From Ruminococcus sp. (GTDB lineage: Bacteria > Bacillota > Clostridia > Oscillospirales > Ruminococcaceae), in contig JAFYFU010000084.1 of the NCBI GenBank assembly GCA_017543595.1, positions 1-40,795 on the forward strand: 40,795 bases of DNA, read 5' to 3'. The notes below the pieces were generated by a model. That model searched no databases, had not been told where the DNA came from, and saw only the letters and a program-made list of their open reading frames with translations. Below, one piece after another: positions 17,654-37,722 of the stretch. Position numbers and translations under genes: made by a program. Numbering within the stretch: position 1 is the first letter of the stretch; each line of letters opens with the position of its first letter.

Positions 17654-17680
17654 AAAAAATCTCCTTATTTAAATTATTAT

Positions 17681-17823
17681 TTAATTCGGAATTACGATAA
17701 AGTTTGGGCAGAATTAAAAAGGGGGGCTTGGGGGGATAAAGCCGCCCCTTGCGCTGAAAGTGAACAGAGCGCAGCGAAGTGAACGAAAGCGCAAGCCTTA
17801 AAGGGCGGCTCCCCCCATTCTAA
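17681..17823. repeat. A-type palindromic repeat, copy A1
   Basis: The element begins at TTAATTCGGAATTA (17681-17694). Its core has outer arms GGGGGG ... CCCCCC and AGCCGCCCC ... AGGGCGGCT, and inner arms CTTGCGCT ... AGCGCAAG. The centre carries two copies of AAGTGAAC. It is inverted with respect to copy A2 at 20125. It fills the space between the 5' end of the flavin reductase-like gene and the 3' end of spo0A. Confidence 0.9.
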
Positions 17824-17863
17824 ATAATAAATCAGGAATATGCCTGATTAAGATATTAAATTA

Positions 17864-18622
17864 TTATTTGCAGCTTTTCAAAACTGATTTGTACCTCAGT
17901 CTGAGCCTGTCTGTTATGAGGGCGATAAATTCCGAATTTGTGGGTTTTCCTTTGCCCGTATCGACGGTATAGCCGAAGAAAGAATTTAAAGTATCGACAT
18001 TTCCCCTGTTCCATGCGATTTCTATTGCATGGCGGATAGCTCTTTCGACACGGGAAGAAGTTGTGTCATATATGCTTGCAACAGTCGGATATAAAAGCTT
18101 TGTAACGCTGTCGAGGAGTGTTCTGTCCTCTATCGAATACATAATAGCCGTTCTGAGATAATGATATCCCTTTATGTGTGCAGGTACGCCGAGCTGGTGA
18201 ATGATATCCGTGACGATTATTTCCATATCATCGCTGAGGCTGTCCGCCCTTCCTCCGAGAGCCGAATTTATGGCACTGCAAAGGTCGTCTGCATCATACG
18301 GTTTAAGAAGAAATTTTGATGCACCGTTTTCCATTACCTGTCTTTCGATAAATTCGTTGTCAAATGCGGAAGTTACTATGAACACGGGGAATTTTACACC
18401 GAGTTCCCTTGTTTTCTTCATTATTGAAACGGCATCGCCGTTCTGAGCGGTTATATCAAGTACGGCAACATCTGGCGAATCTTTCTTTATGGATTCAACT
18501 ATCACGTTGCAGTCTTTGCGCCTTGTATAAGCATACATACCTCTTTCACGGAGCTTATTTGCCACGCTTACACCCGTAACGGCAGAATCATCACCTATAA
18601 GTACCTTTATCTTGTTATTCAT
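17864..18622 (-). CDS. spo0A: Sporulation master response regulator Spo0A
   Basis: The 252-residue protein has an N-terminal receiver domain (D11, D12, phospho-acceptor D56 in AVLDITA, T/S in VTSA, K in LLKPYD). The C-terminal Spo0A DNA-binding domain (about 140-250) contains [41 protein letters not shown] and [17 protein letters not shown], which is diagnostic. Phosphorylated Spo0A binds TGTCGAA boxes and starts endospore formation. All key residues are intact. The SD is AAAGGAGG. A TTGCAA/TAAAAT promoter is at 18654-18683. No kinase gene is nearby, as usual in Clostridia, and spoIVB is not its neighbour here. Confidence 0.96.
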
Positions 18623-18653
18623 TATTTTTTTCCTCCTTTATTTCTGTAATACT

Positions 18654-18683
18654 ATTTTATCACAGAAGAAAAGGAAATTGCAA
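18654..18683 (-). promoter_or_regulatory. Candidate promoter of spo0A
   Basis: TTGCAA (18683-18678), an 18-base spacer and TAAAAT (18659-18654) on the minus strand, about 32 bases before the spo0A start. Confidence 0.6.
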
Positions 18684-18795
18684 CAGTATAAAAAGTCACT
18701 TTTCGGGATATTTCGGCATTTTTGGTTAGAAAAAGTAACCTGCGGAAAAAAACGGGATTTTATAATATATGATGTCGATAAAGGTATGAATATGA

Positions 18796-20109
18796 CTATT
18801 TTTTTCTTTTTATGATATCTGCGCCTCTGCTTTTTATTTTTATGAGCATACCGTCAGCGATATTTCTTACTTTTGTACCCTGCGGAAAGAGAGTATCCGC
18901 AAGTTTTGCGGCAGCATTTTTTTTAAGTTTTCTGCCGTATACGGGAGCGGTATCGGGCTGTGAAGAAATTTTTTCCCATTTTGACAGAACGTCTTCCGAA
19001 AGATATTCACTTAAAAGCTGTCTGTCTGCGGCTGCGCTGTACTTTACAAAATATTCAAAGGGAATACTGCACTTGTCAGCGGAAAAATCTCCGCACAAAT
19101 CATGAAAATGCATTTCAAAAAGTTCCCTGAAACTGTCTCTGCCGTTTACACATTCGGGGCAGTTTTCAAGTGCGGATTTTATATTTTCGGAAAGGCTGTC
19201 TTTCGCTTTATAATTGGGTACAAGACTTAAAGAGCCGAGTATTATAAATCCGATTTTAAACAGACTTGAACAGAAATCACTCTGAAATGTTTTGTTTATC
19301 GGAATATCAAAATTATAACACGCATAAAGACCGAATACACAGTGAAGCATTAAATAGTCAATGCTGTCATAATTATAAACGTGCTTTGCCTGCACATATC
19401 CCCTCAGTCTGCCTGATTTCACCATGAGCGGAATAACGGGAGTGAGAAGAAGTGCCTTTGAACCTTTAAGAATCGGGGTTTCAATGTCATTTGCGACATT
19501 TCCGCCTATATGAAGTATTTTATCGGGAGATACTCCTGATTTTTCAATTATTTTGTCAAAAGTTTTTTCGGCATCATCAAAGGCGATTCCCTCGGAATAA
19601 AGTGTTATAAGCCTGTTATATGCGGAATATCCGCATTTTGCAAGGACTTTTTTTATTGTGTTTTCGGGATATATTGAATCATAAACAAGAATTATTTTTT
19701 TCTTTCTGTCTCTGGCAGTCCTGAAAAATTCCGCTCCGCAGCTTCTTGTAAATGCAAAATATTCAAACAGTTCACATTCACGATTTTTAAGGCTGTCCCG
19801 CACATCATCGCTTAAATGATTGTTTTTTGCGAAAATTTCATAGATATTGTCTAAACTTACGCAGGAATTATATTTTTTTTCAGCCTCGTCCTGAGCGGAT
19901 ATACGCAGTTCGGTAAAAGATTTTTTGCTGTACTCTGCGAAATCCTTTTCCATAAATCCGAACATATCGCCAAATTCCGAAAACGGTGTCATAACAAGCG
20001 TATCCATAAGCCTGAAACTTACAGCCTTATATTTGCTCTGACATATTTCGCCTTTCATTTTCTGAACAAGGTCAGCCTGTTCTTTCACAGCAGGTATAAC
20101 AACGCCCAT
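18796..20109 (-). CDS. HAD-like protein with degenerate active site
   Basis: The 437-residue protein resembles large HAD-superfamily proteins with a DxD core followed by helical caps. The first motif reads VSFRLMDTLV (R33, D36), where an active hydrolase has D-I-F-D, so the nucleophile is lost. The later motif reads HIGGNVANDIETP instead of HIGDN..SD, losing another acid. Motif II (ILVYDSIYP) is kept. It is therefore unlikely to be a phosphatase. The C-terminal 200 residues are helical and unrecognised, ending in a Lys-rich tail. The ATG at 20109 follows AAGGAGTGAG; a longer frame would translate the neighbouring repeat. Relatives of this HAD group often occur in surface-polysaccharide loci, but nothing here confirms that. 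Confidence 0.7.
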   Translation of the reverse strand: MGVVIPAVKEQADLVQKMKGEICQSKYKAVSFRLMDTLVMTPFSEFGDMFGFMEKDFAEYSKKSFTELRISAQDEAEKKYNSCVSLDNIYEIFAKNNHLSDDVRDSLKNRECELFEYFAFTRSCGAEFFRTARDRKKKIILVYDSIYPENTIKKVLAKCGYSAYNRLITLYSEGIAFDDAEKTFDKIIEKSGVSPDKILHIGGNVANDIETPILKGSKALLLTPVIPLMVKSGRLRGYVQAKHVYNYDSIDYLMLHCVFGLYACYNFDIPINKTFQSDFCSSLFKIGFIILGSLSLVPNYKAKDSLSENIKSALENCPECVNGRDSFRELFEMHFHDLCGDFSADKCSIPFEYFVKYSAAADRQLLSEYLSEDVLSKWEKISSQPDTAPVYGRKLKKNAAAKLADTLFPQGTKVRNIADGMLIKIKSRGADIIKRKK

Positions 20110-20124
20110 AAACTCACTCCTTAT

Positions 20125-20247
20125 TAAAAATGGGGGGAGCCGCCCTTTGGGGCTTGTGCTTTCGTTCACTCCGCTTTGCTCCGTTCACTTTCAGTACAAG
20201 GGGCGGCTTTATCCCCCCAAGCCCCCCTGTTTTTAATTCCGAATTTA
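20125..20247. repeat. A-type palindromic repeat, copy A2
   Basis: This copy is inverted relative to A1. Outer arms GGGGGG/CCCCCC and AGCCGCCC/GGGGCGGCT are kept; the inner arm next to CTTG is CTTGTACT ... AGCACAAG when read in A1 orientation (one mismatch). Its right end TAATTCCGAATTTA (20234-20247) contains the stop codon of proS on the minus strand. Confidence 0.9.
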
Positions 20248-21687
20248 ATATGCTATTCCCCAGCAAACCTTATGCTTTGCAGGTTTTCCGCAGCATACGC
20301 AAACATCTGAAATGCTTGTCTGGTCAAAGGGTATGCATCTTGAACCAACACCTGTCTGTTCCTTTACGGAATCCTCACAGGCTTCGTCACCGCACCACAT
20401 AGCCATTATAAAACCGTCACCCTTTTCTTTGAGAGTGGTTTTAATTTCGTCAAGGGTTTTGCAGTCATAAGTTCTGTTGTTCTGATTTTCGAGAGCCTTT
20501 GCATACATTCCGTCATGAACTTCCCTGAGTTTTTCGGCAACAGCCTTTTCAAGTTCATCAAGGGATACAAAAGTCTTTTCGCCGTTGTGACGGGTAACAA
20601 TTACGCACTGATTGTTTTCTATATCCTTAGGACCTATTTCAATTCTTACGGGAACACCTTTCATTTCGTATTCGGAGAATTTCCAGCCGGGTGAATTTTC
20701 ACTGTCATCAAGCTTGATTCTCAGACCTGTTTCAGCAAGGCGTTTTCTGAGTTCCTCAGCCTTTTCGAGTACACCCTCTTTATGCTGTGCAATGGGAATT
20801 ATAACAGCCTGAACAGGTGCTACCGCAGGAGGAAGAACAAGTCCGTTATTGTCGCCGTGTGTCATTATTATCGCACCGATAAGACGGGTTGTAACGCCCC
20901 AGCTTGTCTGGTGGGGATATACTCTCTTGTTGTCCTTGTCAGTATACTGAATATCAAAAGCCTTTGCAAAACCGTCACCGAAATAATGTGAAGTACCTGC
21001 CTGCAAAGCTTTTCCGTCATGCATGAGAGCCTCAATTGCATAAGTTGAAACTGCACCCGCAAACTTGTCGCTTTCAGTCTTTTTGCCTTTAAGTACAGGC
21101 ATGGCAAGGGCTTTTTCGCAGAAATCAGTATAAACATTAAGCATACGCTCTGTTTCTTCAATTGCCTCCTCAGCAGTTGCATGAATGGTATGACCCTCCT
21201 GCCATAAAAATTCCCTTGAACGGAGGAAAGGACGGGTAGTTTTCTCCCAGCGTACAACACTTACCCACTGATTGTAAAGCTTGGGCAAATCCCTGTAAGA
21301 GTGAACTATATTTGCATAGTGTTCGCAGAAAAGAGTTTCAGATGTGGGACGCACGCAAAGTCTTTCTTCGAGTTTCTCGTTTCCGCCGTGAGTTACCCAT
21401 GCAACTTCGGGAGCAAAGCCCTCAACATGGTCTTTTTCCTTCTGTAAAAGCCCTTCGGGGATAAACATGGGCATACATACATTTTCGTGACCCGTAGCCT
21501 TGAACATATTGTCAAGTATGTGCTGGATATTTTCCCATATCGCATAGCCGTAGGGACGGATTACCATACAGCCCTTAACACTTGTATATTCAACAAGTTC
21601 AGCCTTTTTGCAGATATCGGTATACCACTGTGCGAAATCCTCATCCATTGAAGTTATCGCAGTTACCATTTTCTTTTCTTTTGCCAT
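20245..21687 (-). CDS. proS: Prolyl-tRNA synthetase, archaeal/eukaryal-type
   Basis: The 480-residue class II synthetase charges tRNA-Pro. The short length, without the bacterial editing insertion, and the C-terminal domain ending [16 protein letters not shown] mark the archaeal/eukaryal-like ProS that many Clostridia carry. Motif 2 ([30 protein letters not shown]) and motif 3 ([28 protein letters not shown]) are clear, as is the anticodon-binding domain near 285-390 ([10 protein letters not shown]). The start has AGAGG upstream and a consensus promoter at 21721-21749. It follows thrS on the same strand but with its own promoter and after a terminator. Confidence 0.97.
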
Positions 21688-21720
21688 AATTATACCTCTT
21701 TCATAAAATCTGATAACTAT

Positions 21721-21749
21721 ATTATATCACCAGTCTGTTATATTGTCAA
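21721..21749 (-). promoter_or_regulatory. Sigma-A promoter for proS
   Basis: TTGACA (21749-21744), a 17-base spacer and TATAAT (21726-21721), 34 bases before the proS start and directly after the thrS terminator. Confidence 0.88.
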
Positions 21750-21751
21750 TG

Positions 21752-21780
21752 AAAAAATCCGCAGACAAAAAGCCTGCGGA
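21752..21780 (-). terminator. Rho-independent terminator of thrS
   Basis: On the minus strand TCCGCAG and CTGCGGA pair with a short loop and are followed by TTTTTT. Between the thrS stop and this hairpin lies the 14-base motif also found at the A-type repeats (21789-21802). Confidence 0.88.
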
Positions 21781-21805
21781 CTTCATTATAATTCCGAATT
21801 TAATT

Positions 21806-23752
21806 TTATCTTACTTTGTTTGCGATGTCATCGAGAAGTTTTCCGAGGAAGTCATTCTGTGACATTGAGCCGAGGTCACCCTCACGCCTTGAAGTTACGG
21901 AAACAGTATTTCCCTCAACTTCCTTGTCTCCGACAGTTACCCATATCGGGAGCTTTTCAAGTCTTGCGTCACGGACTTTCTTTCCGACTTTTTCAGCCCT
22001 GTCATCAATGCTTGCCCTTATTCCTGCGGATTCAAGCTTTGCAAGGAGGGCGTTGCAGTATTCAAGATGACGGCCTGCAACGGGAACTATTCTAACCTGT
22101 TCGGGAGCAATCCAGAGAGGCATTGCGCCTGCATATTTTTCAATCATATATGCAAGGGTTCTCTCATAGCAGCCGAGAGATGTTCTGTGGATTATATAGG
22201 GAGTTTTCTTTGTTCCGTCAACATCAACGTATTCCATTCCGAAACGCTGTGCAAGGAGCATATCAATCTGAATAGTTACAAGAGTATCTTCTTTTCCGTA
22301 TACGTTCTTGTACTGAATATCGAGCTTAGGACCGTAGAAAGCAGCCTCATCAATTCCTATTGTATATTCAACGCCGAGGTCATCGAGGATTTTTCCCATT
22401 ACTTCCTGAGCATAATCCCACTGTTCCTTAGTACCCTCATATTTGTTCTTCGGATTTGAGGGGTCCCACTGTGAGAACCTGAAAGTACAATCTTCAAGAA
22501 GTCCGACAGTGCCGAGCATTTCTTTTGCGAGTGAGAGACAGTCGGCAAACTCCTGTTCAAGCTGTTCGGGTCTTAAAATAAGGTGTCCCTCTGAAATTGT
22601 GAACTGTCTTACACGGATAAGACCATGCATTTCGCCTGAATCTTCTTTTCTGAAAAGAGTTGAAGTTTCGCCCAGTCTCATAGGCAAATCACGGTATGAA
22701 CGCTGTCTGTTGAGAAATACCTGATACTGGAAAGGACAGGTCATGGGTCTGAGTGCAAAACATTCCTTTTCTTCGTCATAGGGGTCGCCCATTATGAACA
22801 TTCCGTCAAGGTAATGGTCCCAGTGTCCCGAAATCTTATAAAATTCCCTCTTTGCAAAATAAGGTGTCTTAGTAAGCAGATAGCCGTGTTTCTGTTCAAC
22901 GTCCTCAACCCAACGCTGTAAAGTCTGAATAACTCTTGCACCCTTCGGGAGAATTACGGGAAGTCCCTGTCCGATTACATCAACTGTTGTAAAGTATTCA
23001 AGTTCTCTGCCGAGCTTGTTATGGTCACGAAGTTTTGCTTCCTCACGCTGTTTAATATCTGCTTCGAGTTCGGCAGCCTTGGGATATGCAACCGCATAGA
23101 CACGGGAGAGCATTTTATTTTTTTCGCTTCCTCTCCAATATGCACCCGTACATGAAAGCAGTTTAAATGCCTTTACGGGAGCAGTTGACATAAGGTGAGG
23201 ACCTGCACACAAGTCAGTAAATTCGCCCTGTTTGTAGAATGAAATAGGCTCGCCCTTGTCAGCGTGTTCCTCACAGAGTTCAACCTTGTAAGGTTCGTCC
23301 ATTTCTTTAAGCTTTGCAATTGCCTCGGCAGGGGGAAGTTCAAACTGTTCAAGAGCGATTCCCTCCTTGACGATTTTTTTCATTTCAGCCTCAATTTTTT
23401 CAAGTTCCTCCTGAGTGAAAGGCTTTTCAAGGTCAAAATCATAGTAAAAACCGTTGTCAATTGCAGGACCTATCGCAAGCTTTGCATTGGGATAAAGTCT
23501 TTTTACAGCCTGAGCGAGTATATGTGACGCAGTATGCCAGAAAGTCTTTTTTCCGTCAACCGAATCAAAAGTACATACTTCAAATTCGCAGTCGTTTTCA
23601 ATTACGGTGCGGAGGTCTTTTACTTCACCGTTTATTTTTACACAACAGGCAGCCTTGTAAAGACCCATGCCTATTCCCTTGATTATTTCCGCAGCAGGTG
23701 CAGCGTTTTCAATTTCACGGATACTTCCGTCTTTAAGCGTAAGCTTTATCAT
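21806..23752 (-). CDS. thrS: Threonyl-tRNA synthetase
   Basis: The 648 residues fit a full-length ThrS. The order is an N-terminal TGS domain (1-61), the editing domain with HTASHILAQAVKRL and the LCAGPHL zinc-like site (about 70-235), the class II catalytic core with MTCPFQYQVF, RLGETSTLFRKEDSGEMHGLIRVRQFT and YIIHRTSLGCYERTLAYMIE, and the anticodon-binding domain (about 540-640). It charges tRNA-Thr and edits mischarged serine. The SD lies inside the last codons of the upstream CoiA-like gene, with one base between its stop and the thrS ATG. The operon begins with a T-box leader, so uncharged tRNA-Thr is the likely inducer. Confidence 0.97.
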   Translation of the reverse strand: MIKLTLKDGSIREIENAAPAAEIIKGIGMGLYKAACCVKINGEVKDLRTVIENDCEFEVCTFDSVDGKKTFWHTASHILAQAVKRLYPNAKLAIGPAIDNGFYYDFDLEKPFTQEELEKIEAEMKKIVKEGIALEQFELPPAEAIAKLKEMDEPYKVELCEEHADKGEPISFYKQGEFTDLCAGPHLMSTAPVKAFKLLSCTGAYWRGSEKNKMLSRVYAVAYPKAAELEADIKQREEAKLRDHNKLGRELEYFTTVDVIGQGLPVILPKGARVIQTLQRWVEDVEQKHGYLLTKTPYFAKREFYKISGHWDHYLDGMFIMGDPYDEEKECFALRPMTCPFQYQVFLNRQRSYRDLPMRLGETSTLFRKEDSGEMHGLIRVRQFTISEGHLILRPEQLEQEFADCLSLAKEMLGTVGLLEDCTFRFSQWDPSNPKNKYEGTKEQWDYAQEVMGKILDDLGVEYTIGIDEAAFYGPKLDIQYKNVYGKEDTLVTIQIDMLLAQRFGMEYVDVDGTKKTPYIIHRTSLGCYERTLAYMIEKYAGAMPLWIAPEQVRIVPVAGRHLEYCNALLAKLESAGIRASIDDRAEKVGKKVRDARLEKLPIWVTVGDKEVEGNTVSVTSRREGDLGSMSQNDFLGKLLDDIANKVR

Positions 23753-23753
23753 T

Positions 23754-24596
23754 TTAATTTTCTCCTTTATTTTTTATTATTTTGTCAATTGTTTTGTTTT
23801 TCCCATTGCAGATAATATACTCATTAATACCATCATCATAATACTTAATGAGATATTGGCAATCGAAACAATCATCAATTAAATTTGCATATGGCAAATT
23901 TGTATAGCGTTTTCCTTTCCATGTTCTTGCCTCTATTGGGCAAAAATCCACATGGTTTGCAAATCCTCTGCTAATAACGGGCTTTTTTTCTGAATCTTCA
24001 CATATTTCTGCAAATTTTTTCGCAGCTTTTGAATTATAAAGCCAACGTTTATTTTCAACGTTGTTTAACAGTAAATCTTTTAATTGTTGTTTGGATATAG
24101 ATTTGTCTGTTTTGCTTAAATCAATTTCAATTGCAGATATGCCCAAATCTTTGATTTTCTGTAATTTAGCATCATCGACTTTATGGGTGACATAAATTTC
24201 AACAATTAATTCTCTTTTACCCTTTTCAAGAATCAAATCGGGTATAATATCACCTGTTCGCTTTTCTGTATAAACATTGTCAATTTTTTTAATTCTATGT
24301 TTTCCAATTAAACAAGCATTTGTAGCATTACATTCATCAATTAATTTTATAGGTGGAAGAAGAATTTCTCCCGTTTCAGATAAAATTTCCTTTGCCAGCA
24401 AGTGCAGAGAAGTTTCATATCCGCCTTTACATTCACTCGAAGAAGAATGAGCAAAATGATGACTGTTAATTTCTCCTTTTCTTGCAATAAGGTTTGAACC
24501 GCAAGCGGGGCATATACAGCCACAGGCGATTCCGCTTTCAACATCATCAACATGAATAAGTTTATTGTTCTTCAATGCATAAGTCATTAAAGGCAT
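23754..24596 (-). CDS. CoiA-like protein with zinc motif and nuclease-like domain
   Basis: The 280-residue protein resembles the competence protein CoiA family. The N-terminal part has a CxC..C zinc-like cluster (CGCICPACGS, about 26-35) and SHHFAHSS, followed by a PD-(D/E)xK-like core near residues 116-150 (DIIPDLILEK...ELIVEIYVTHK). A C-terminal Cys pair (DCFDCQYLI) may bind a second metal. Members are presumed nucleases and are frequent on mobile elements; a competence role is not implied. The gene is visibly more AT-rich than its neighbours, which suggests transfer. It sits between the T-box and thrS and is tightly coupled to thrS. The SD is AGGAGA, eight bases before the ATG. Confidence 0.8.
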   Translation of the reverse strand: MPLMTYALKNNKLIHVDDVESGIACGCICPACGSNLIARKGEINSHHFAHSSSSECKGGYETSLHLLAKEILSETGEILLPPIKLIDECNATNACLIGKHRIKKIDNVYTEKRTGDIIPDLILEKGKRELIVEIYVTHKVDDAKLQKIKDLGISAIEIDLSKTDKSISKQQLKDLLLNNVENKRWLYNSKAAKKFAEICEDSEKKPVISRGFANHVDFCPIEARTWKGKRYTNLPYANLIDDCFDCQYLIKYYDDGINEYIICNGKNKTIDKIIKNKGEN

Positions 24597-24611
24597 TTAA
24601 AACGTCTCCTG

Positions 24612-24992
24612 TCAATAGCTGTCCCAACCGAGAATTTCAAATTCGTTATCAAAAAGTTCCATTGACAGCGGGCTTTTCATATATCCGTCAGTGCTGTTCA
24701 CCGTAAAGCAGAGAACAACTTCGTCCTCATCAATATCCACATAAACCTTGACAAGCATTATAAAATCTTCAAGTGTTTCGGCTGCGCCCTCATAATAACC
24801 GTCATCTGCAACAAGTCTGACAACAGTTGACTTACTGCGGTTGAGTCTGTCGAGTTTTGCGGCGATTTCGCTTATATTTTCCATTATATCTTCCTGCTCC
24901 TCAACGTAAAAGCGGACAGTCATATCTTTTTCCCATATCTTATAAACTATTTCATAAGCTTCTTCTTTTTCGTTGTACTTGATTTTATTCAT
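24612..24992 (-). CDS. Conserved-looking small acidic protein of unknown function
   Basis: The 126-residue acidic protein is not recognised. It reads as an alpha/beta protein (EAYEIVYKIWEKDMTVRFYVEE, a helix ENISEIAAKLDRLNRS, then strands with VVLCFTVNSTDGYMKSPLSMELFDNEFEILGWDSY). No signal peptide or membrane segment is present. The ATG at 24992 follows AGAGGTGA; the longer frame has no SD. It is the first gene after the T-box leader and is followed after 19 bases by the CoiA-like gene. The small acidic single-domain form recalls immunity-type proteins, but that is only a resemblance in size and composition. Confidence 0.7.
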   Translation of the reverse strand: MNKIKYNEKEEAYEIVYKIWEKDMTVRFYVEEQEDIMENISEIAAKLDRLNRSKSTVVRLVADDGYYEGAAETLEDFIMLVKVYVDIDEDEVVLCFTVNSTDGYMKSPLSMELFDNEFEILGWDSY

Positions 24993-25075
24993 CTGATTCA
25001 CCTCTTTTCTTAATGGGGAACGCAAGGCTTTTTAATCCTTTATAAATCCGCCCGAATTTATTTCTGCGGATAAAC

Positions 25076-25326
25076 AAAAACCGCCCCAAAGTCTTCATAA
25101 AGACAAAAGGGACGGCAAATACCGTGGTTCCACCCTGATTCACACGGACAGAAATATCCGTATCTCATTGGCTCTGTAACGGGAGCAGCCGACGCTTATT
25201 GGGCGCACTCGGAGGCGGTGTGCATATATTTTGTATCATACCGTTTTTTCAGCTTTTCACGGCTCTCTGTAAAGATACACGGCAATATATGCCTTCCTCG
25301 TCAAAGATTTAAAAATATCTTACAGA
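25076..25326 (-). ncRNA. T-box riboswitch leader of the thrS operon
   Basis: On the minus strand the leader begins after a consensus promoter (25328-25356). It contains stem I, with an AGAGAG distal motif, the T-box AGGGTGGAACCACG (25136-25123), and a terminator stem GCCGTCCC ... GGGGCGG followed by TTTTTG (25117-25077). Uncharged tRNA pairs with the T-box bulge and stops the terminator forming. A specifier candidate is ACA (Thr) at 25234-25232 in the 3' arm of stem I, which fits thrS; the loop boundaries are uncertain, so this is a tentative assignment. Two genes lie between this leader and thrS. Confidence 0.93.
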
Positions 25327-25327
25327 T

Positions 25328-25356
25328 ATGATAACACATAACTTTGATTTTGTCAA
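25328..25356 (-). promoter_or_regulatory. Sigma-A promoter of the T-box/thrS operon
   Basis: TTGACA (25356-25351), a 17-base spacer and TATCAT (25333-25328), directly upstream of the T-box leader. Confidence 0.85.
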
Positions 25357-25437
25357 GACCTTAATTTTACAATTTATATACGCATAATCAATGCAATATG
25401 CACAAAATCACAAAACAATATTATTCTTGTGTAACTA

Positions 25438-25466
25438 TTGACTTTATATATAAAAAGTGTTATAAT
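25438..25466 (+). promoter_or_regulatory. Sigma-A promoter for the dockerin protein gene
   Basis: TTGACT (25438-25443), a 17-base spacer and TATAAT (25461-25466), 42 bases before the ATG at 25508. It diverges from the T-box promoter. Confidence 0.85.
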
Positions 25467-25507
25467 AGGTATAGTTGATTTAAATTTTAATATATGAGGT
25501 GATTTTC

Positions 25508-26593: not shown

Positions 26594-26610
26594 ACTGAAT
26601 ATAAATCATA

Positions 26611-26637
26611 AAATCCCGACAAGTTCGGGATTTTTTA
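26611..26637 (+). terminator. Rho-independent terminator of the dockerin gene
   Basis: ATCCCGA and TTCGGGAT pair with a short loop, followed by six T. The next promoter's -35 begins at 26638. Confidence 0.92.
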
Positions 26638-26666
26638 TTGACATATCATGGCTTTCATATTATAAT
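26638..26666 (+). promoter_or_regulatory. Sigma-A promoter for the GH26-like/isp unit
   Basis: TTGACA (26638-26643), a 17-base spacer and TATAAT (26661-26666), 32 bases before the start codon. Confidence 0.88.
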
Positions 26667-26697
26667 TTACTTATAGAAAACCGAAAGGAGTTTTTCA

Positions 26698-28149: not shown

Positions 28150-28836
28150 ATGAGTACATCAGCCGTTATAGTTTGTGCAGGCAATTCAACAAGAATGGGC
28201 GGTATAAATAAAATACTGCTCCCGCTCGGAAACCGCCTTGTAATAGGCGTTACAATGCAGGCTTTTCAGGCTTGCGAAAGCATAAGCGAAATTATAATAG
28301 TCGCAAGAGATTCCGATATCCCCGAAATAATCAAAGAAGCCGAAAACGCAGGCATTACAAAACTCAAAGAATGTACAACGGGCGGAAATACCCGTCAGGA
28401 AAGCGTTATAAACGGCATTAAGAAAATCTCAAAGGATTCTCAGCTTGTCGCAGTTCATGACGGTGCAAGACCTCTCATCAAGCCCGAACATATCGAAAAA
28501 GCCATAAAAGATGCAAAAGTTTTCGGCGGTGCAACTCTCGGCGTTCCCGTGAAAGATACAATAAAAGTCGTTGATGACGGAATTATAACGGATACTCCCC
28601 CACGCAAATCATTATATATCACGCAGACACCGCAGATATTCAAGAGAAATTTATATTTTGAAGGCATAGATTTCGCCCTTGAACACGGTCTTGATTTTAC
28701 CGATGACTGTCAGCTTGTCGAGGCAATAGGCGGAAAAGTCTACATGACAACAGGCGACTACACAAATATAAAAATAACCACTCCCGAAGATATTAAAATT
28801 GCGGAAACACTCCTGAAAATGCGTTATGAAAAATAA
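28150..28836 (+). CDS. ispD: 2-C-methyl-D-erythritol 4-phosphate cytidylyltransferase
   Basis: The 228-residue enzyme transfers CMP to MEP in the non-mevalonate isoprenoid pathway. Visible blocks are VIVCAGNSTRMGGINKILLPLG (nucleotide-binding loop), VHDGARPLI, GATLGVPVKDTIK, TPPRKSLYITQTPQIF, and TDDCQLVEAIGGKVYMTTGDYTNIKITTPED, all typical of IspD. The ATG follows the upstream stop directly. IspF is two genes downstream, the usual functional pairing, here separated by one small membrane protein. Confidence 0.96.
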   Translation: MSTSAVIVCAGNSTRMGGINKILLPLGNRLVIGVTMQAFQACESISEIIIVARDSDIPEIIKEAENAGITKLKECTTGGNTRQESVINGIKKISKDSQLVAVHDGARPLIKPEHIEKAIKDAKVFGGATLGVPVKDTIKVVDDGIITDTPPRKSLYITQTPQIFKRNLYFEGIDFALEHGLDFTDDCQLVEAIGGKVYMTTGDYTNIKITTPEDIKIAETLLKMRYEK

Positions 28837-29137
28837 TATATTAAAAAAGATACTTATTGCCTTGCACGGACTTTTTCAGGGATTTATAGGCTTATGGTGG
28901 TCATTTGTGGGGATAGCCTTTATAACTCACCCCGATTCATCACCCGGAACTAAGGACTGGGAAGAAGACAAAGACTTTATCCCGTTCGGCTATTTAATGA
29001 TTTTAGTATATCTGATTATTCTCGCCGTAAGCTTTTATAATTTCAAAGAAAATAAATCGGATATTATTGCATTTATAATATCGCTTGCTGTCGGCATAGC
29101 GGGATTTATAACTTTTATTTTGCTGAAAGTTTTATAA
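28826..29137 (+). CDS. Small integral membrane protein between ispD and ispF
   Basis: The 103-residue protein has three predicted membrane helices (about 8-33, 52-70 and 78-101) and a short loop [15 protein letters not shown]. No family is recognised. Its start overlaps the last 11 bases of ispD, so translation is probably coupled. The partnership with isoprenoid genes may be only positional. Confidence 0.75.
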
Positions 29138-29165
29138 TATTTTAACAAACAAAAAGGAGATTTTT

Positions 29166-29642
29166 ATGTTTAGAATAGGTCACGGTTATGATGTTCATAA
29201 GCTTGTTGAGGGAAGAAAATTAATACTCGGCGGTGTGGATATTCCACATACTGTCGGGCTTTTAGGTCATTCGGACGCAGATGTGCTTGCCCATGCAATA
29301 ATGGACGCTATGCTCGGCGCACTTGCTCTCGGAGATATAGGTCATCTTTTTCCTGACACGGACGACAGTTTCAAAGGTGCGGACAGCCTGAAATTAATGG
29401 AAAAAGTCGTTGAAGTTTGCAGGCATAAGGGCTACTGTATCGGAAACGTTGATGCCACTGTAATAGCGCAAGCCCCGAAACTCGCACCCCATATAATTTC
29501 AATGCGTGAGAATATCGCAAGGGTCTGCAAATGCGATATTTCGCAGATAAGCGTAAAAGCCACAACAGAAGAACATCTCGGATTCACGGGAGAAAAACTC
29601 GGAATATCCGCCCACGCTGTCGCACTTATGCAGAAAATATGA
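29166..29642 (+). CDS. ispF: 2-C-methyl-D-erythritol 2,4-cyclodiphosphate synthase
   Basis: The 158-residue enzyme forms MEcPP from CDP-ME-phosphate, normally as a trimer with a divalent metal. It contains [26 protein letters not shown] (D8 and H10 metal ligands), [33 protein letters not shown], and the closing [22 protein letters not shown]. The length matches. It is last in the GH26-like/ispD/membrane protein/ispF unit; the SD is AAAGGAGA. Confidence 0.97.
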
Positions 29643-29677
29643 AAAATCCCCTGTCGCAGGACAGGGGAATATTTTTT
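29642..29677. terminator. Bidirectional terminator between ispF and metG
   Basis: CCCCTGTC and GACAGGGG pair around GCAG, with A-rich and T-rich flanks. It serves the convergent ispF and metG genes. Confidence 0.92.
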
Positions 29678-31667
29678 ATCTTACTTTTGAACCAACGGGA
29701 ATTGAATCGTCAACGAATACAACTTTTACTCCATCGGGGGTATCGGCAGCACATATCATTCCGCAGCTTTCAACGCCTCTTAACTTAACGGGTTTGAGAT
29801 TTGCGATAATCTGAATTTTCTTTCCGACAAGTTCTTCGGGAGTGTAATACTGTGCGATTCCCGAAACTACCTGTCTGCCGCCCATGCCGTCATCAAGCTG
29901 TAAGCGGAGGAGTTTGTCTGATTTTTTTATCTTTTCGGCAGAGATTATCTTTGCAACACGGATTTCAATTTTAGCGAAATCATCAATTGTTATTTCGGGT
30001 GCAAGTTCGATTTTCTCGGAGTTATCCGAACTTTCAGCCTTTTCGCTTTCGGAAAGCTTGGACTTTGCGTCAGCCATATTTTTTTCTATGATTGCATTGA
30101 GTTCTTCTATTTCCTTGTCAACGTCTATTCTGGGGAACAAAATAGCACCCTTGTGAACAGTCACATTTTCGGGAAGAACTCCGAAAGTGCTTAATTTATC
30201 GTATTCAACATCTGATTCTGACGCACCTGTCTGCTCCCATACTTTCGGCATAGTTTCGGGCATAAAGGGCGACAGGAGCGTTGAAATTATGCGTATGCCG
30301 TCAAGGAGATTATACAATACGCTTGCAAGCCTTGCCTTTTTGGATTCATCTTTTCCGAGTACCCACGGCTGAGTTTCGTCAATGTATTTGTTTGCACGGT
30401 CAACAGCCTTGAATATGGCTTCAAGTGCGCCTTTTATTCTTGTGCCGTCCATTTCCGTTTCAACGTCTTTGACTGTATTGAGAACAGTATTTATAAAGTC
30501 GCTGTCAATTTCTTCTGCCTGACGTTCGGTCGGGAGAGTACCGCCGAAATACTTGTCAGCCATAGCGACTGTACGGGAAACAAGATTTCCGAGACCGTTT
30601 GCAAGGTCTGAATTTATGCGGTTTATCATAATTTCATTTGAGAAAGCACTGTCTGCACCGAGAGCCATTTCACGGAGAATATGGTATCTTATTGCATCAA
30701 CGCCGTATCTTTCGCCGAGCATGAACGGGTCAACAACGTTTCCGAGAGATTTTGACATTTTCTGACTTTCACCGTTCTTGCCTGCAAAAGTTATCCAGCC
30801 GTGTACAGCAAGATGTTTCGGCAAAGGCTGTTCAAGAGCCATAAGCATAGCGGGCCATATAATCGCATGGAATCTCATGATATCCTTTGCAACCATATGG
30901 ACATCAGCGGGCCAGAATTTTTCATAGTCGTTATATGTTTCATTTAGGAATCCGAGAGCGGAAATATAGTTTGAAAGTGCATCTATCCAGACATATACAA
31001 CGTGCTTGTCATCAAAAGTTACAGGGATTCCCCATTTGAAAGTTGTTCTTGAAACGCACAAATCTTCAAGACCCGGCTTTATAAAATTATTTACAAGTTC
31101 AACGGCACGGGTTTTGGGTTGGAGATAATCGGTTTCGGTGAGGAGCTTTTCTATTCTGTCTGCAAAAGGTGACATTTTAAAGAAATAAGCTTCCTCTTTT
31201 GCAAAGGTAACGGGTCTGTGACATTCGGGACAGCAGCCGTTTTCGTCAAGCTGTGAATCAGTCCAGAAACTCTCGCAGGGAGTACAGTATTTTCCTGAAT
31301 ATTCGCCTTTATAGATATATCCCTTGTCATAGAGTTCCTTGAAAATCTTCTGAACGGTTTCTATGTGATAATCGTCGGTTGTGCGGATATAGCGGTCATA
31401 ATCAACGTTCATATATTTCCAGAGCTTTTTGAATACAGCAACTATTTCGTCAACGTATTCTTTCGGGGTAATACCCTTTTCTGCTGCTTTCTGTTCTATT
31501 TTAAGACCGTGTTCGTCCGTGCCTGTCAGGAACATTACATCATAGCCCTGCATACGTCTGTAACGGGCGATTGAATCGCAGGCTACGGAAGTGTAGCAGT
31601 GTCCGATATGCGGATTACCCGAAGGATAATATATCGGCGTAGTTATATAAAAAGTTTTCTTTGGCAT
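29676..31667 (-). CDS. metG: Methionyl-tRNA synthetase
   Basis: The 663-residue class I synthetase begins TFYITTPIYYPSGNPHIGHCYTSVACD (HIGH site) and has the KMSKS loop in SQKMSKSLGNVVDP. A zinc knuckle (CTPCESFW ... CCPECH) is present. A C-terminal EMAPII/Trbp111-like tRNA-binding domain (about 560-663, ITIDDFAKIEIRVAKIISAEKI) is fused. It supplies Met-tRNA for initiation and elongation. The ATG at 31667 is chosen over one two codons upstream because AGGAGA is eight bases before it. A perfect promoter is at 31700-31728. Confidence 0.97.
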   Translation of the reverse strand: MPKKTFYITTPIYYPSGNPHIGHCYTSVACDSIARYRRMQGYDVMFLTGTDEHGLKIEQKAAEKGITPKEYVDEIVAVFKKLWKYMNVDYDRYIRTTDDYHIETVQKIFKELYDKGYIYKGEYSGKYCTPCESFWTDSQLDENGCCPECHRPVTFAKEEAYFFKMSPFADRIEKLLTETDYLQPKTRAVELVNNFIKPGLEDLCVSRTTFKWGIPVTFDDKHVVYVWIDALSNYISALGFLNETYNDYEKFWPADVHMVAKDIMRFHAIIWPAMLMALEQPLPKHLAVHGWITFAGKNGESQKMSKSLGNVVDPFMLGERYGVDAIRYHILREMALGADSAFSNEIMINRINSDLANGLGNLVSRTVAMADKYFGGTLPTERQAEEIDSDFINTVLNTVKDVETEMDGTRIKGALEAIFKAVDRANKYIDETQPWVLGKDESKKARLASVLYNLLDGIRIISTLLSPFMPETMPKVWEQTGASESDVEYDKLSTFGVLPENVTVHKGAILFPRIDVDKEIEELNAIIEKNMADAKSKLSESEKAESSDNSEKIELAPEITIDDFAKIEIRVAKIISAEKIKKSDKLLRLQLDDGMGGRQVVSGIAQYYTPEELVGKKIQIIANLKPVKLRGVESCGMICAADTPDGVKVVFVDDSIPVGSKVR

Positions 31668-31699
31668 AAACATCTCTCCTGTCTTTTAGTAATATGTAT

Positions 31700-31728
31700 A
31701 TTATACAACATTAAATTAATTTTGTCAA
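31700..31728 (-). promoter_or_regulatory. Sigma-A promoter for metG
   Basis: TTGACA (31728-31723), a 17-base spacer and TATAAT (31705-31700) on the minus strand. Confidence 0.9.
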
Positions 31729-31750
31729 CAACGGATATTTTACAAAAATA

Positions 31751-31779
31751 TTGACTTTATTTCAAGTATAGTATATAAT
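31751..31779 (+). promoter_or_regulatory. Sigma-A promoter for the 31809-34379 genes
   Basis: TTGACT (31751-31756), a 17-base spacer and TATAAT (31774-31779), divergent from the metG promoter, 30 bases before the ATG. Confidence 0.88.
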
Positions 31780-31808
31780 ATTAGTGTCAGGAACAAAGGG
31801 GTGATAAG

Positions 31809-32465
31809 ATGAAAAAATATCTCGGACAGATAATATTCAATCTTGTTATGGCAGGAATTGCAGCTTATGTTTTCGGGAAGTCTCCCATAGCCGATTCCCT
31901 GTTTATGTCAATAGGGGCTATAATTCTAATGATGGCTGTACTCTGCGGCGGAAATTATATTTTTGTTCAGACGGACAGCAAGAAAATCACTCAGAAATCA
32001 TATATAATTACAGAGAATACTTTTGAAAAGCTCGAAACTCCGCAGGACTACTTAGACGTTATGAAAGAAATTTCAGATTATGATATTTGCAGAACTGAGG
32101 CAAATAAAATCCTTGAACAGTGGGAAACTTTCAGGAAAAAATCCGAAACTCTGAATACCATATGTTCGGGCGGCGGCGTTTATGATGTTGTAAACCATGA
32201 TGTTGAAGAAGTCATGTTAAAAAATATGATGCTGTTTATTAAAAGAACAGCTATTATCCAGTCAGCATCAAAAAATGAAAAAATAAGCCTGCATATGGCT
32301 TATCTCAATGCAATTATCGAAAGAAACAACAGAATATTAAATGACTATACAAAACTTCTCGTTGAGGTTTCCCAGATGACAGACGGCGATTCTGAAAATA
32401 CAGGTCTTGAATCTCTCGAAATGCTTATAGATTCAATTAAAAACTGCCGTCAGGAGCTTAATTAA
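31809..32465 (+). CDS. Membrane protein with helical cytoplasmic domain, unknown
   Basis: The 218-residue protein has two N-terminal membrane helices (about 5-23 and 29-53) followed by a largely helical soluble domain of about 160 residues (FEKLETPQDYLDVMKEISDYD ... NRILNDYTKLLVEVSQM). No catalytic motif is recognised. The SD is AGGGG/GGTG-like. It is followed on the same strand by a solute-binding/VWA fusion with a repeat-filled 216-base gap. Co-function with that protein is an inference from position. Confidence 0.8.
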   Translation: MKKYLGQIIFNLVMAGIAAYVFGKSPIADSLFMSIGAIILMMAVLCGGNYIFVQTDSKKITQKSYIITENTFEKLETPQDYLDVMKEISDYDICRTEANKILEQWETFRKKSETLNTICSGGGVYDVVNHDVEEVMLKNMMLFIKRTAIIQSASKNEKISLHMAYLNAIIERNNRILNDYTKLLVEVSQMTDGDSENTGLESLEMLIDSIKNCRQELN

Positions 32466-32569
32466 TTCAAGGGGGCTTGGGGGAATCAGCCGCCCCTTGA
32501 CCTGAAAGTGAACGCAACGCAGTGGAGTGAACGAAAGGTCAAGATTTCAAAGGGCGGCTTCCCCCATTA
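32461..32569. repeat. A-type palindromic repeat, copy A3
   Basis: Arms are GGGGG/CCCCC and AGCCGCCCC/AGGGCGGCT, with inner arm CTTGACCT ... AGGTCAAG (perfect). Its left end (TTAATTAATTC) overlaps the stop codon of the upstream gene. It is in the same orientation as A1 and is joined to a B-type copy. Confidence 0.9.
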
Positions 32570-32670
32570 AGACAAGAGGAAATTTTTGCCCTTGCCGTAT
32601 GAACGAATGTAGCTTTGCGAAATGAGTGAATAGGCAAGCCACAAAAGGCAAAAATTGACGATTTTAAATA
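32570..32670. repeat. B-type palindromic repeat, inverted copy B3
   Basis: Read on the minus strand, the outer arm is AATTTTTGCC ... GGCAAAAATT and the inner arm CTTGCC ... GGCAAG, with the ATCGTCA and TTCC flanks seen in the 1-336 array. It ends 11 bases before the start of the VWA gene. Confidence 0.88.
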
Positions 32671-32681
32671 GGGGGTATACA

Positions 32682-34379
32682 ATGAAAGGTAAAGTTTCCA
32701 TTATTATTGCCGTTATAGGCGTTATTGCAACAACAATTCTCATATTGTCAGTGACAGGAAAATCAGATTCCAAAGAAACATCAACAGCACCAAAACCAAC
32801 CGCTTCCCAGAAATCACCCGAAGAAACTATGGATAACATAATTAAAAAACTTAAAGTTATCCAGATGAACAAAGTTAAGGGTACTGTTGATTATTCGGAT
32901 AATGTTTCCGCAAATCTTCCGAATATAGAAACAAAATATCCCCTCACGGTTGTCGGAGACGGCGATGTTGATATAGAAATATTCTCAACTTCCGAAAAAG
33001 CAGGAAAGAAAAATAACGGCTGGCTCAACGAAATTGCTGAGGAGTTTAACAAGGGCAGATATAAACTCTCGGACGGCTCAACAGTTTCCGTAAGCGTAAG
33101 AAGTATTCCCTCAGGTGCAGCTTCCGATTATATAACAAATAATGTCTATATTCCGCAGGCTTATACTCCCTCGAATACTCTTTTCGGAGAACTTGCAATC
33201 GAAAAAGGTGCGGAATTAACTCTCGAACAGGAACAGCTTGTCGGAAATACCGCAGGAATTGCCCTTGCAAAATCTGCCAAATCTTCAATAGATTCAAAAT
33301 ACGGGGAAACAAATTTTGAAACGGTTGTAAGTGCCGTAACAGACGGGGAAATACAACTCGGATATACATATCCCTATACTTCCGCAACAGGTCTTAATTT
33401 CCTTGTAAATGCCCTCAATTATTTCGACAGTGCGGATATGATGAGTGATACGGCTGTTGAAAGTTTCAGGCAGTTACAGCAGAATATCCCCTTTGTATGC
33501 TATACTACCGACCAGATGGTAAATGCTATGCAGAGCGGTACTTTGCAGGCGGGAGTTGTGGAATATCAGGCTTATATAAACAATGCGTCTTTGAAAAGTT
33601 CCTATGAATTTATTCCCTTCGGATATAAGCACTCAAATCCCCTTTACAGTGTCGGAAAACTCGACAAAGACCAGAAAGAAGCCCTCGATGTATTCCTTAA
33701 ATTCGCCATGAATGACGAAAATCAGAAACACGCAGAAGAATATGGTTTCAACAAGGATATAAATTATTCCTACAATGAAAAAAATATAAACGGTTCGGAT
33801 ATCATAAGCGCACAGACTCTCTGGAAACAGGAGAAAAATTCAGGCACTCCCACTATTGCATTATTTATTGCGGACGTTTCGGGAAGTATGAACGGCGACC
33901 CCATTACAAGACTTAAAACCTCTCTTTTGGAGGCTTCCAAAAATATAAACGGCGATAATTATATCGGTCTTATATCTTACAGCGATAATATTATGGTAAA
34001 TCTCCCGATAGCACAGTTTGACCTTGAACAGCGTTCATATTTCGCAGGCGCGGTTGAAAACCTCATTTCAGGCGGAAATACCGCAACTTATGATGCACTT
34101 ATGCAGGGCGTTAAAATGATAAACGATATGAAGGAACAAATCCCCGAAGCAAATACTATGATTTTCCTTTTGAGTGACGGTCACTGCAACAGGGGTACGG
34201 ACTATGACGTTGCCGAAAAAATTGTGAAACATTACGGAATACCTATATACACAATAGGCTACAATGAAGAAATTGATTCCCTTAAAGACTTGTCATCAAT
34301 AAATGAAGCTGTCTATATAGATGCCGACAATGATGATGTTGTATATGAACTTTCCGCACTTTTCAACGCACAGATGTAA
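32682..34379 (+). CDS. Membrane-anchored solute-binding-like plus VWA-domain protein
   Basis: The 565-residue protein has one N-terminal helix (about 4-24), so the rest is extracytoplasmic. Residues about 75-370 resemble a periplasmic binding protein fold (DVDIEIFSTSEKAGKKNNGWLNEIAEEFNK ... GTLQAGVVEYQAYINNASLKSSYEFIPFGYKHSNPLYSVG). Residues about 390-560 are a von Willebrand factor A domain with an intact metal site: DVSGSM (D398, S400, S402), T467 in GGNTATYD and D499 in LLSDGH. The combination suggests metal-dependent binding of a ligand or protein at the cell surface. The ATG at 32682 follows GGGGG, seven bases upstream; the longer frame would translate repeat B3. The function is unknown. 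Confidence 0.85.
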   Translation: MKGKVSIIIAVIGVIATTILILSVTGKSDSKETSTAPKPTASQKSPEETMDNIIKKLKVIQMNKVKGTVDYSDNVSANLPNIETKYPLTVVGDGDVDIEIFSTSEKAGKKNNGWLNEIAEEFNKGRYKLSDGSTVSVSVRSIPSGAASDYITNNVYIPQAYTPSNTLFGELAIEKGAELTLEQEQLVGNTAGIALAKSAKSSIDSKYGETNFETVVSAVTDGEIQLGYTYPYTSATGLNFLVNALNYFDSADMMSDTAVESFRQLQQNIPFVCYTTDQMVNAMQSGTLQAGVVEYQAYINNASLKSSYEFIPFGYKHSNPLYSVGKLDKDQKEALDVFLKFAMNDENQKHAEEYGFNKDINYSYNEKNINGSDIISAQTLWKQEKNSGTPTIALFIADVSGSMNGDPITRLKTSLLEASKNINGDNYIGLISYSDNIMVNLPIAQFDLEQRSYFAGAVENLISGGNTATYDALMQGVKMINDMKEQIPEANTMIFLLSDGHCNRGTDYDVAEKIVKHYGIPIYTIGYNEEIDSLKDLSSINEAVYIDADNDDVVYELSALFNAQM

Positions 34380-34380
34380 T

Positions 34381-34413
34381 AAAAATGCCGTACAGAAATG
34401 TACGGTATTTTTT
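34381..34413. terminator. Bidirectional terminator between VWA and lipoprotein genes
   Basis: CCGTAC and GTACGG pair around AGAAAT, flanked by A and T runs. Confidence 0.88.
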
Positions 34414-34422
34414 AATTATAAA

Positions 34423-35268
34423 TTAATATGGCAGTCTGAATTTTCCTGCTTTCCATGTTCCGTCATCATCTTTAACCATTGAAAATTCCGCCTTGTCCTC
34501 ATATGAACCTGAATCATCATAGGGCGAACCGTTATAATAGCTTGTGACCGTGAACATTATTTCGTTGTCATTTTTTGAATCAATGCTTGTTATTTCGGAA
34601 TTTAAATAAAATATATTTGTTCCCCTTGAACCGTTAAGGGCATATACATGACCGTCTGATTCAATGAAAGTTTCTGATAATGCATTGGGATATTTATGAC
34701 TGAATACCTTGTAATAGTCCTTCTCAACATCAGAAATGGAATTTATTCCCTCAGTGATTATCATGTAATATTTCCAGCCGAGGTCATTTTCCACGCTTGA
34801 ATCATAGTCTATTGCGTAGGGCGAACCGACTGTATAACTCCATTCTGTCTTGCAGGCTGATTCATAGAGTGTCTGTGCAAATGCTTTGAGTTCGTCATCA
34901 GAAAGAGAAAGCATATCAACGTCAGAAACTACTGCGCCGTTGTTGTCAACATCTATACTGTCGTACTCCTCACGCTTATCCCCTGATATATTGGGTGTGG
35001 GAATCTTATTGGGAGTTGAAAACATATCTATTTCTGAGAGTTCTTTTTCTGTCGATACCGTTGTAACTTCCTCAGTATTTTCAATTTCGGTTGTCGTTAC
35101 GGGAATACTTGTTTCGGGAACTGTTGTCTGCTCCGTCTGAGTTTCCTCGGAAGAATCTGTTTCTGTTGTTGGTATAACTCCCACAAAGCTTGTACTTCTT
35201 ACCGTTGAACAGCCTGAAAATGCCGAACATAAAACAAAAAAAACAGAAAAAGCAATTATTTTCCTCAT
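34423..35268 (-). CDS. Lipoprotein of unknown function
   Basis: The 281-residue protein has a lipoprotein signal (lipobox FSGC, about residue 20). A long Thr/Glu/Val-rich linker (about 30-95, with TTVPETSIPVTTTEIENTEE) leads to a C-terminal globular domain (about 115-281) of mixed helices and strands, including ELKAFAQTLYESACKTEWSYTVGSPY and NEIMFTVTSYYNGSPYDDSG. No family is recognised. The SD is AGGAGAT. It is convergent with the VWA gene and bounded upstream by a B-A composite repeat. Confidence 0.85.
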   Translation of the reverse strand: MRKIIAFSVFFVLCSAFSGCSTVRSTSFVGVIPTTETDSSEETQTEQTTVPETSIPVTTTEIENTEEVTTVSTEKELSEIDMFSTPNKIPTPNISGDKREEYDSIDVDNNGAVVSDVDMLSLSDDELKAFAQTLYESACKTEWSYTVGSPYAIDYDSSVENDLGWKYYMIITEGINSISDVEKDYYKVFSHKYPNALSETFIESDGHVYALNGSRGTNIFYLNSEITSIDSKNDNEIMFTVTSYYNGSPYDDSGSYEDKAEFSMVKDDDGTWKAGKFRLPY

Positions 35269-35280
35269 ATCTATCTCCTA

Positions 35281-35412
35281 TTTGAAATCGTCAGATTTGT
35301 GCTTTTTAGGCTTGTCATTTCGTTCACTCCGCAAAGCTCCGTTCACTCTCATGACAAGGCACAAATCTTCCTCTAATTTGAAATCGTCAGATTTTGCCTC
35401 TTATAGCTTGTT
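35281..35412. repeat. B-type palindromic repeat, copy B4 plus partial unit
   Basis: The full unit has an outer arm GATTTGTGC ... GCACAAATC and inner arm CTTGTCAT ... ATGACAAG, both perfectly complementary although different from the 1-336 units. Its centre TTCGTTCACTCCGC is that of the A-type elements, which links the two types. A second left arm starts at 35381 (period 96) and breaks off about eight bases before A4. Confidence 0.9.
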
Positions 35413-35418
35413 ATTTTG

Positions 35419-35540
35419 AATGGGGGGAGCCGCCCTTTGGGGCTTGCCTATTCACTCACTCCGCTACGCTTCGTTCATTCATACGGCAAGGGGCGGCTTT
35501 ATCCCCCCAAGCCCCCTTATAATTTCTAATTCCGAATTTA
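35419..35540. repeat. A-type palindromic repeat, copy A4
   Basis: This copy is inverted relative to A3, with the GGGGGG/CCCCCC and AGCCGCCC/GGGCGGCT arms. Inner arms are CTTGCC ... GGCAAG with a TAT/ATA extension. Its right end TAATTCCGAATTTA (35527-35540) includes the rnr stop codon on the minus strand. Confidence 0.9.
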
Positions 35541-37700: not shown

Positions 37701-37722
37701 TGTTTCACCTCTTTTACTCATC

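Follow-up and report, generated by a model that had tools for sequence, protein, structure and literature searches.

Copies of a hairpin repeat in a Ruminococcus contig

The stretch of DNA examined in the present study (the window, 40,795 nt) corresponds to contig 64 in a draft genome of 2.4 Mb from Ruminococcus sp. (genome G000), and it contains copies of a short palindromic repeat, of two types termed A and B, which we interpret below as a family of probably mobile hairpin elements. An initial annotation of this DNA had described dispersed palindromes with co-varying arms; each of the places that it named carries an A- or B-type copy, the inner and outer arm pairs that it quoted are present in the window sequence, and our data confirm that both the repeats and their covariation are real.

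A tandem array of B-type units with a period of 99 nt (positions 1–336, minus strand) is cut by the contig start and immediately follows the stop codon that ends the ORF (open reading frame) at 338–703 (−). Its members are the model matches 1–111, 98–210 and 197–309, plus an extra right arm up to position 336, and the outer arms of the copy at 197–309 do not match each other. An A-type copy at 17722–17830 (+) is antisense to both of its flanking ORFs (17144–17653 and 17864–18622, both −) and is an exception to the rule of sense orientation described below; in the sister genome G028 the same gap holds a sense B copy. This copy had been placed at 17681, which is correct as to its presence but too early as to its position, the hairpin starting near 17722. 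The A-type copy at 20118–20226 (−) is immediately followed by AAGGAG and by an ATG, at 20109 (−), that falls within the listed ORF 18796–20169. Further along, an A-type copy at about 32470–32566 (+; model match 32488–32559) directly follows the ORF 31809–32465 (+), and a B-type copy with a class 2 centre (32565–32674, +) precedes AGGGGG and the ATG at 32682 of an ORF ending at 34379 (+). Lastly, a B-type copy (35275–35384, −) is followed immediately by AGGAG and the beginning of ORF 34423–35268 (−), and a right-half remnant of a B unit (35385–35407, −) stands between it and an A-type copy with a class 2 centre at 35408–35516 (−), downstream of the ORF 35538–37724 (−).

None of the 29 terminator-like sites detected in 17500–36000 was an element hairpin, in what was a weak test allowing only loops of 3–8, and one such site starts at position 17830, the edge of the A-type copy there. 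A search against Rfam 15 returned no window match at the gathering score; the four matches below threshold lie in four other loci, away from any copy. At 32655–32683, the element tail TTGACGA resembles a −35 word and is followed, 17 nt further on, by a −10-like word (10 of 12 matches); this tail is common to most B copies and could carry an outward promoter. We also observed that AATTCGGAATT or AATTCCGAATT motifs recur outside A copies, in the window at 17681–17700, 20236–20245 and 35528–35540, and also at loci L127 and L118.

Unit architecture and covariation of the fold

The unit is approximately 97 nt long and polar, with (A/G)GAGGAAA at one end and TTTTAAATA at the other. With GTGAACG on the top strand, B units consist of GAGGA, a 10-nt arm, CTTG, 4 nt, the centre, 4 nt, CAAG, a CCNNAAA bulge, a 10-nt arm and GACGATTTTAAATA. 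A copies have the core and bulge of B, but with AGCCGCCC/GGGCGGCT arms between G and C runs, and a hybrid copy (L003:1019–1128) combines an A left arm with a B right arm. In an alignment of copies the hairpin base reads AGG...GACGA, and CTTG/CAAG falls inside the stem. A shortened A form that lacks the core (GGGGGGCTTGGGCGGCTCCCCCCATTTTAAATA) was seen at L127, about 1405–1440, where the same site in G028 has two B copies.

Covariation was assessed on 320 candidate copies from three species (G000, G028 and a third carrier, G084), obtained by a scan that demanded exact CTTG and CAAG and no other pairing, and the set includes a few false copies (8 of the 162 G000 copies have 0–1 inner pairs). The inner four bases were complementary in 85% of cells for the 162 G000 copies compared with 42% after shuffling (maximum 47% in 1000 shuffles), in 80% compared with 41% for the 109 G028 copies, and in 95% compared with 50% for the 49 G084 copies. 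The outer arms were scored with free offsets (best of 8), as a fixed anchor misread 11-nt arms, especially those of G028 and G084; on this basis 9/9 pairs were found in 108 of 139 G000 B copies compared with 13 per equally treated shuffle. Within the 23 A copies the outer arms are nearly invariant and shuffling has no effect; the evidence for covarying outer arms accordingly comes from the B copies and from the contrast between A and B. RNAalifold applied to 26 B copies gave both-side change at 14 of 23 pairs. Covarying pairs were thus found genome-wide and the arms do not change independently, which agrees with the compensatory change originally described.

The centre of the unit, TTCGTTCACTCCGC, resembles an open loop at first sight. 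The proposed arms and variable complementary bases are borne out, but the centre is instead a conserved non-canonical helix. On folding, GT/AC, AC/GT and GC/GC dinucleotides come to face one another, separated by G.A mismatches, and the strand that is sense to the next gene forms a ladder of two Watson–Crick pairs, a tandem G.A, two pairs, G-N-A/G-N-A, two pairs and a triloop. We compared 214 distinct 48-nt cores from the three species, comprising 173 of class 1, 31 of class 2 and ten that fit neither and were left out of the pair tables; the tables of both-side and one-sided changes cover class 1 as a whole and class 2 in part only. In 204 of the 214 cores, of both classes, five G.A positions are kept at 97–100% while the Watson–Crick pairs change on both sides together. 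In class 1 these G.A positions (12:38, 15:35, 16:34, 19:31 and 21:29) stand at 97–99%, with 20:30 free and 11:39 at 59%; class 2 keeps the same positions, and 11:39 as well, at 97–100%. The six Watson–Crick positions of the class 1 centre pair in 95–98% of cores, and this pairing (0.967) fell to 0.348 or less when the partner was slid by 1–3 bases, although some centre columns, such as 17:33, are too conserved for shuffling to show much. Pair 22:28 is G-C in 103 class 1 cores and A-T in 63 (63 both-side changes), with five one-sided changes and two broken pairs, and pair 5:44 shows 98 both-side changes, one one-sided and five broken. A search with the ladder only and free flanks recovered 207 centres, in 199 of which CTTG and CAAG were both exact, whereas the four pairs between CTTG/CAAG and the ladder vary, being paired in 94–96% and, at all but one position, occurring in three or four common types. 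These data establish the fold by covariation.

The initial annotation had left two origins for such compensatory change, namely selection on the hairpin or a copying process that restores the arms. Template switching has been proposed as a mechanism for RNA stems (PMC8794818, in excerpt), and in its pure form the second origin would have replication template switching or arm conversion maintain complementarity as mutational bookkeeping, with no selection on the fold. The rarity of one-sided intermediates, e.g. one against 98 both-side changes at pair 5:44, is what such copying would give. However, arm copying should also perfect the five G.A positions, which persist next to pairs that have changed, and CTTG/CAAG are fixed beside four pairs that vary. 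We consequently regard copying as a very improbable sole cause; selection on the hairpin stands, and copying may contribute as well, one-sided intermediates being rare.

The strand is fixed by the G.A pairs, which occur only on the strand sense to the downstream gene, the other strand having C.T mismatches. Wobble in the outer arms (26 G.T or T.G compared with 8 A.C or C.A) likewise favours the sense strand. Tandem G.A pairs in such contexts are expected to be stable in both RNA and DNA.

Placement before Shine–Dalgarno sequences

A start with a Shine–Dalgarno word was found on the sense side of 81 of 110 clusters of copies and on the antisense side of one of 110. Among terminal copies, 83 of 92 of type B and 12 of 18 of type A have an ORF start 20–110 nt downstream of CAAG; the distance from CAAG to the start codon has its mode at 41–46 nt, and the start has its own Shine–Dalgarno sequence. 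On the upstream side, the first copy of 68 out of 115 clusters overlaps a co-directional ORF stop or is no more than 60 nt away from one.

Sense orientation, a fixed distance to the start codon, proximity to an upstream stop and the confinement of G.A pairs to the sense strand are all features that would suit a host-functional leader or intercistronic RNA, in which the hairpin would, for example, protect the upstream message or insulate the next ribosome-binding site and this role would select the fold. Against it, the gaps occupied, by crude gene calls, were 62 of 233 co-directional, 15 of 31 divergent (which have two starts each) and five of 42 convergent ones, so that copies track the number of gene starts and not operons. 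In addition, we scanned ten downstream proteins out of a random 20 from 59 eligible. Six passed the NCBIfam cut-off (LL-diaminopimelate aminotransferase, Tgt, dihydroorotase, UppP, CysK and ArgH), three matched below it and one had no match; no function was common to these ten, which are unrelated housekeeping enzymes or unnamed. We judge a host role of this kind to be unlikely, and return to it with the comparison of sister species. A second dispersed repeat, with ATAATTCATAATGCATAATT motifs, was noted upstream of several elements in G028 (L133, L134 and L139–L142).

Copy number and host range

The covariance model that the initial annotation had suggested as a check was built from 26 B copies and gave at least 149 matches in G000 and at least 64 in G028; with stricter filters it gave none in the other 58 relatives. 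The 162 candidate copies of G000 come from 58 stretches picked around model matches. A strict core pattern gave 73 hits in G000, 33 in G028 and 43 in G084, and none in 97 other genomes of the genus; a reversed-pattern control also gave none. The patterns used here are strict enough for distant relatives to go undetected. As 73 whole-genome hits compare with 62 among the 162 candidates, scaling puts the G000 total at about 190 copies.

The family is present in three of 100 sampled genomes of the genus, G000 included, and in a sample of the order one of 394 genomes was positive, namely G000 itself (the two sister carriers lay outside that sample). A loop-only pattern, applied to one genome per species, found 60 stretches, 58 of them from Ruminococcus sp. 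RGIG4914 (roe deer rumen) and UBA4383. The remaining two are from Methanoperedenaceae and have the loop alone in common with the family. In these two genomes (L200 4008–4035 and L201 196–223) the same loop motif sits inside a different repeat, and tandem G.A centres may have arisen repeatedly. Phage and plasmid records gave no match to one 302-base tandem query, and an A-type pattern search of viral contigs gave none. On these sequence searches the family appears to be restricted to a lineage of a few Ruminococcus genomes and related phages.

Insertion or loss in other copies, sister species and phages

Five B copies are nested in the apical loop of another copy (L080, L084, L103, L105 and L118), with both host halves kept and complementary, and one identical insert was found in two hosts, one B and one A. 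Additional nested cases keep only one host half or have partly lost the host. A search for an autonomous version, pairing unpaired left and right halves up to 6 kb apart in the fetched stretches, turned up nothing but nested or chance pairs.

We also compared the orthologous stretches of G028, most of which are 74–89% identical. Of 16 G028 clusters with mapped flanks, nine occupy sites that are also occupied in G000 (eight by script, nine by reading), and the other seven sites comprise two clean empty sites and a rest of remnants, A-type short forms or unread sites. One clean empty site, L125:2000–2080, lies opposite three tandem G028 copies. Inner stems differ at seven of the nine sites occupied in both genomes and, together with the empty or remnant sites, this indicates that no gene-specific role has been conserved, which counts against a host-functional RNA.

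Among the viral contigs, L256 and L257 are 95–97% identical over the terminase, portal, protease and major head genes, and one unit stands before the major head (capsid) gene in L256 and none in L257, a net difference of 97 bp. The flanking matches overlap by AGGAGGAAA, which could be either a target duplication, of the sort expected of a DDE-type MITE, or the element's own GAGGAAA end; the nested sites have no such duplication. Conversely, an A copy in L257 is absent from L256. At another phage site L262 has no element, L259, L261 and L264 have the tail only (L261 and L264 being identical over 7.1 kb), and L265 and L266 have the tail and a full unit. That phage capsid operons carry the hairpin too is a further point against a host leader function. 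At L260 1570–1680 we noted a 97% match to L256 on the left of the element and to L263 on its right, the gene that follows the element in L263 being a different one. Possibly the repeat provides the homology at which phage modules are joined; alternatively, the contig is chimeric.

Units have been inserted or lost, then, between close relatives, and the nested copies, empty sites and phage polymorphism back the miniature mobile element that was among the candidates initially put forward, next to a structured RNA and a binding hairpin. We conclude, with a probability of roughly three in four, that the repeats are miniature mobile hairpin elements, non-coding and probably non-autonomous, whose family is restricted to a lineage.

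Candidate mobilizing enzymes and a proposed mechanism

Several observations weigh against this conclusion. The five nested B insertions seem to be missing approximately 4 host loop bases and are not simple clean insertions, and gain and precise loss are indistinguishable at most two-state sites, phage sites included. Nine shared sites of 16 exceed what free movement would need, a rate biased by the picking of G000 stretches around copies. The inner-stem wobble (6 compared with 8) has no asymmetry towards the sense strand. Finally, Y1 transposase and reverse transcriptase were searched for in 18 genomes, the drafts of the carriers G000, G028 and G084 being 93, 73 and 81% complete. Y1 transposase (PF01797) was absent from the incomplete G000 and G084 and gave one partial match, in a 77-aa frame, in G028; reverse transcriptase (PF00078), which a retro-mobile RNA would call for, was found in none of the three incomplete carriers compared with seven of 15 non-carriers. 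Neither enzyme was found in the G000 draft and both were set aside as mobilizers, although these absences are leads and not proofs because the drafts are incomplete.

The Y1 result bears directly on the idea that a Y1 (HUH) transposase, acting on ssDNA (single-stranded DNA), moves the family as a REP or IS200/IS605-type element. A single folded strand, needed mismatches, small size, high copy number and tandem clusters all fit that idea. As no Y1 domain was found beyond the partial G028 frame, and the hairpin base carries no GTAG-type tag, we consider it quite unlikely.

For a mobile hairpin element as concluded above, we propose that a unit of approximately 97 nt would insert one-way immediately 5′ of Shine–Dalgarno sequences, and also into the apical loops of other copies. 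Its sense strand forms one long hairpin of paired outer arms of free sequence, fixed CTTG/CAAG, four free pairs, the G.A ladder and the triloop. The mover presumably reads this folded single strand, be it RNA or ssDNA, by shape throughout and by letters at CTTG/CAAG and the G.A positions, and pairing and G.A would be kept while letters drift because it does so. Insertion would be tolerated by the host because it does not disrupt the Shine–Dalgarno sequence and because an A/T-rich spacer comes with the unit. As sites turn over between species, we place selection mainly on the element's own spread, with an mRNA role as the main rival. A tentative extension, possible but rather doubtful, is a new kind of mobile element in which a structured single strand (RNA or ssDNA) with a G.A-ladder hairpin would be recognized by shape and CTTG/CAAG and integrated at single-stranded targets (ribosome-binding sites and its own apical loops) by neither Y1 nor reverse transcriptase; it would be shared by Ruminococcus and its phages, serving the latter as a portable homology joint between structural-gene modules.

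Apart from the repeats, the window contains two 300-nt stretches within 4475–5446, 72% identical and 672 nt apart, which form an internal protein repeat in a 491-aa ORF.

Significance and comparison with known systems

The family is a natural data set of unusual clarity: covariation alone suffices to separate the sequence-specific, structure-only and non-canonical segments of a hairpin. The repeat enters many leaders and operon junctions with the start signal left intact, and closely related phages are polymorphic for it; whether such hairpins alter translation or mRNA stability becomes a testable question. A mobilizing enzyme, if found, would define a new way for small elements to move in gut Firmicutes.

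We found no description of this family in open-access full texts (subscription papers and preprints lay outside the search), and a word search of PMC3733652 for Firmicutes, Clostridia or Ruminococcus gave no hits. REPINs are miniature mobile DNA elements that form a hairpin, whose two sides undergo compensatory changes (PMC3116915, in excerpt), and in E. coli REPs stem mismatches are needed for TnpAREP activity (PMC8266576, in excerpt). As far as these excerpts describe them, the present family resembles both in being short, non-coding, high-copy palindromes that form a hairpin in ssDNA or mRNA, with compensatory changes and conserved stem mismatches. However, it is one polar hairpin where a REPIN is a REP doublet; it has CTTG/CAAG inside the stem and a G.A ladder instead of a GTAG (or similar) tag at the base; and it is sited in one orientation at Shine–Dalgarno sequences, with no Y1 (RAYT/TnpAREP) gene in two of the three incomplete carriers.

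MIRUs, like the present family, are tandem, polar and found inside operons, and the two also share a one-orientation insertion at gene starts (81/110 sense compared with 1/110 antisense here). The insertion sites of MIRUs are start codons, and the ORF within a MIRU is coupled to the gene; the present unit, in contrast, lies before the Shine–Dalgarno sequence, and its core is a covarying hairpin for which no coding role was found, no ORF scan having been aimed at the units. MIRUs have been described as apparently mobile short repeats that insert at start codons with little effect on expression (PMC12548453, in excerpt). The TAACTGA direct repeats of Beggiatoaceae lie directly upstream of start codons and mostly point towards them (PMC4679880, in excerpt), so that siting and orientation are alike; in that excerpt, however, they are heptamers that overlap the ribosome-binding site and have no predicted structure, whereas the present element is a long hairpin that leaves the site intact. 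In our best reading, the family is a new sort of miniature mobile hairpin repeat, with a REPIN-like structure and MIRU-like siting, and a member of neither the REP nor the MIRU group.

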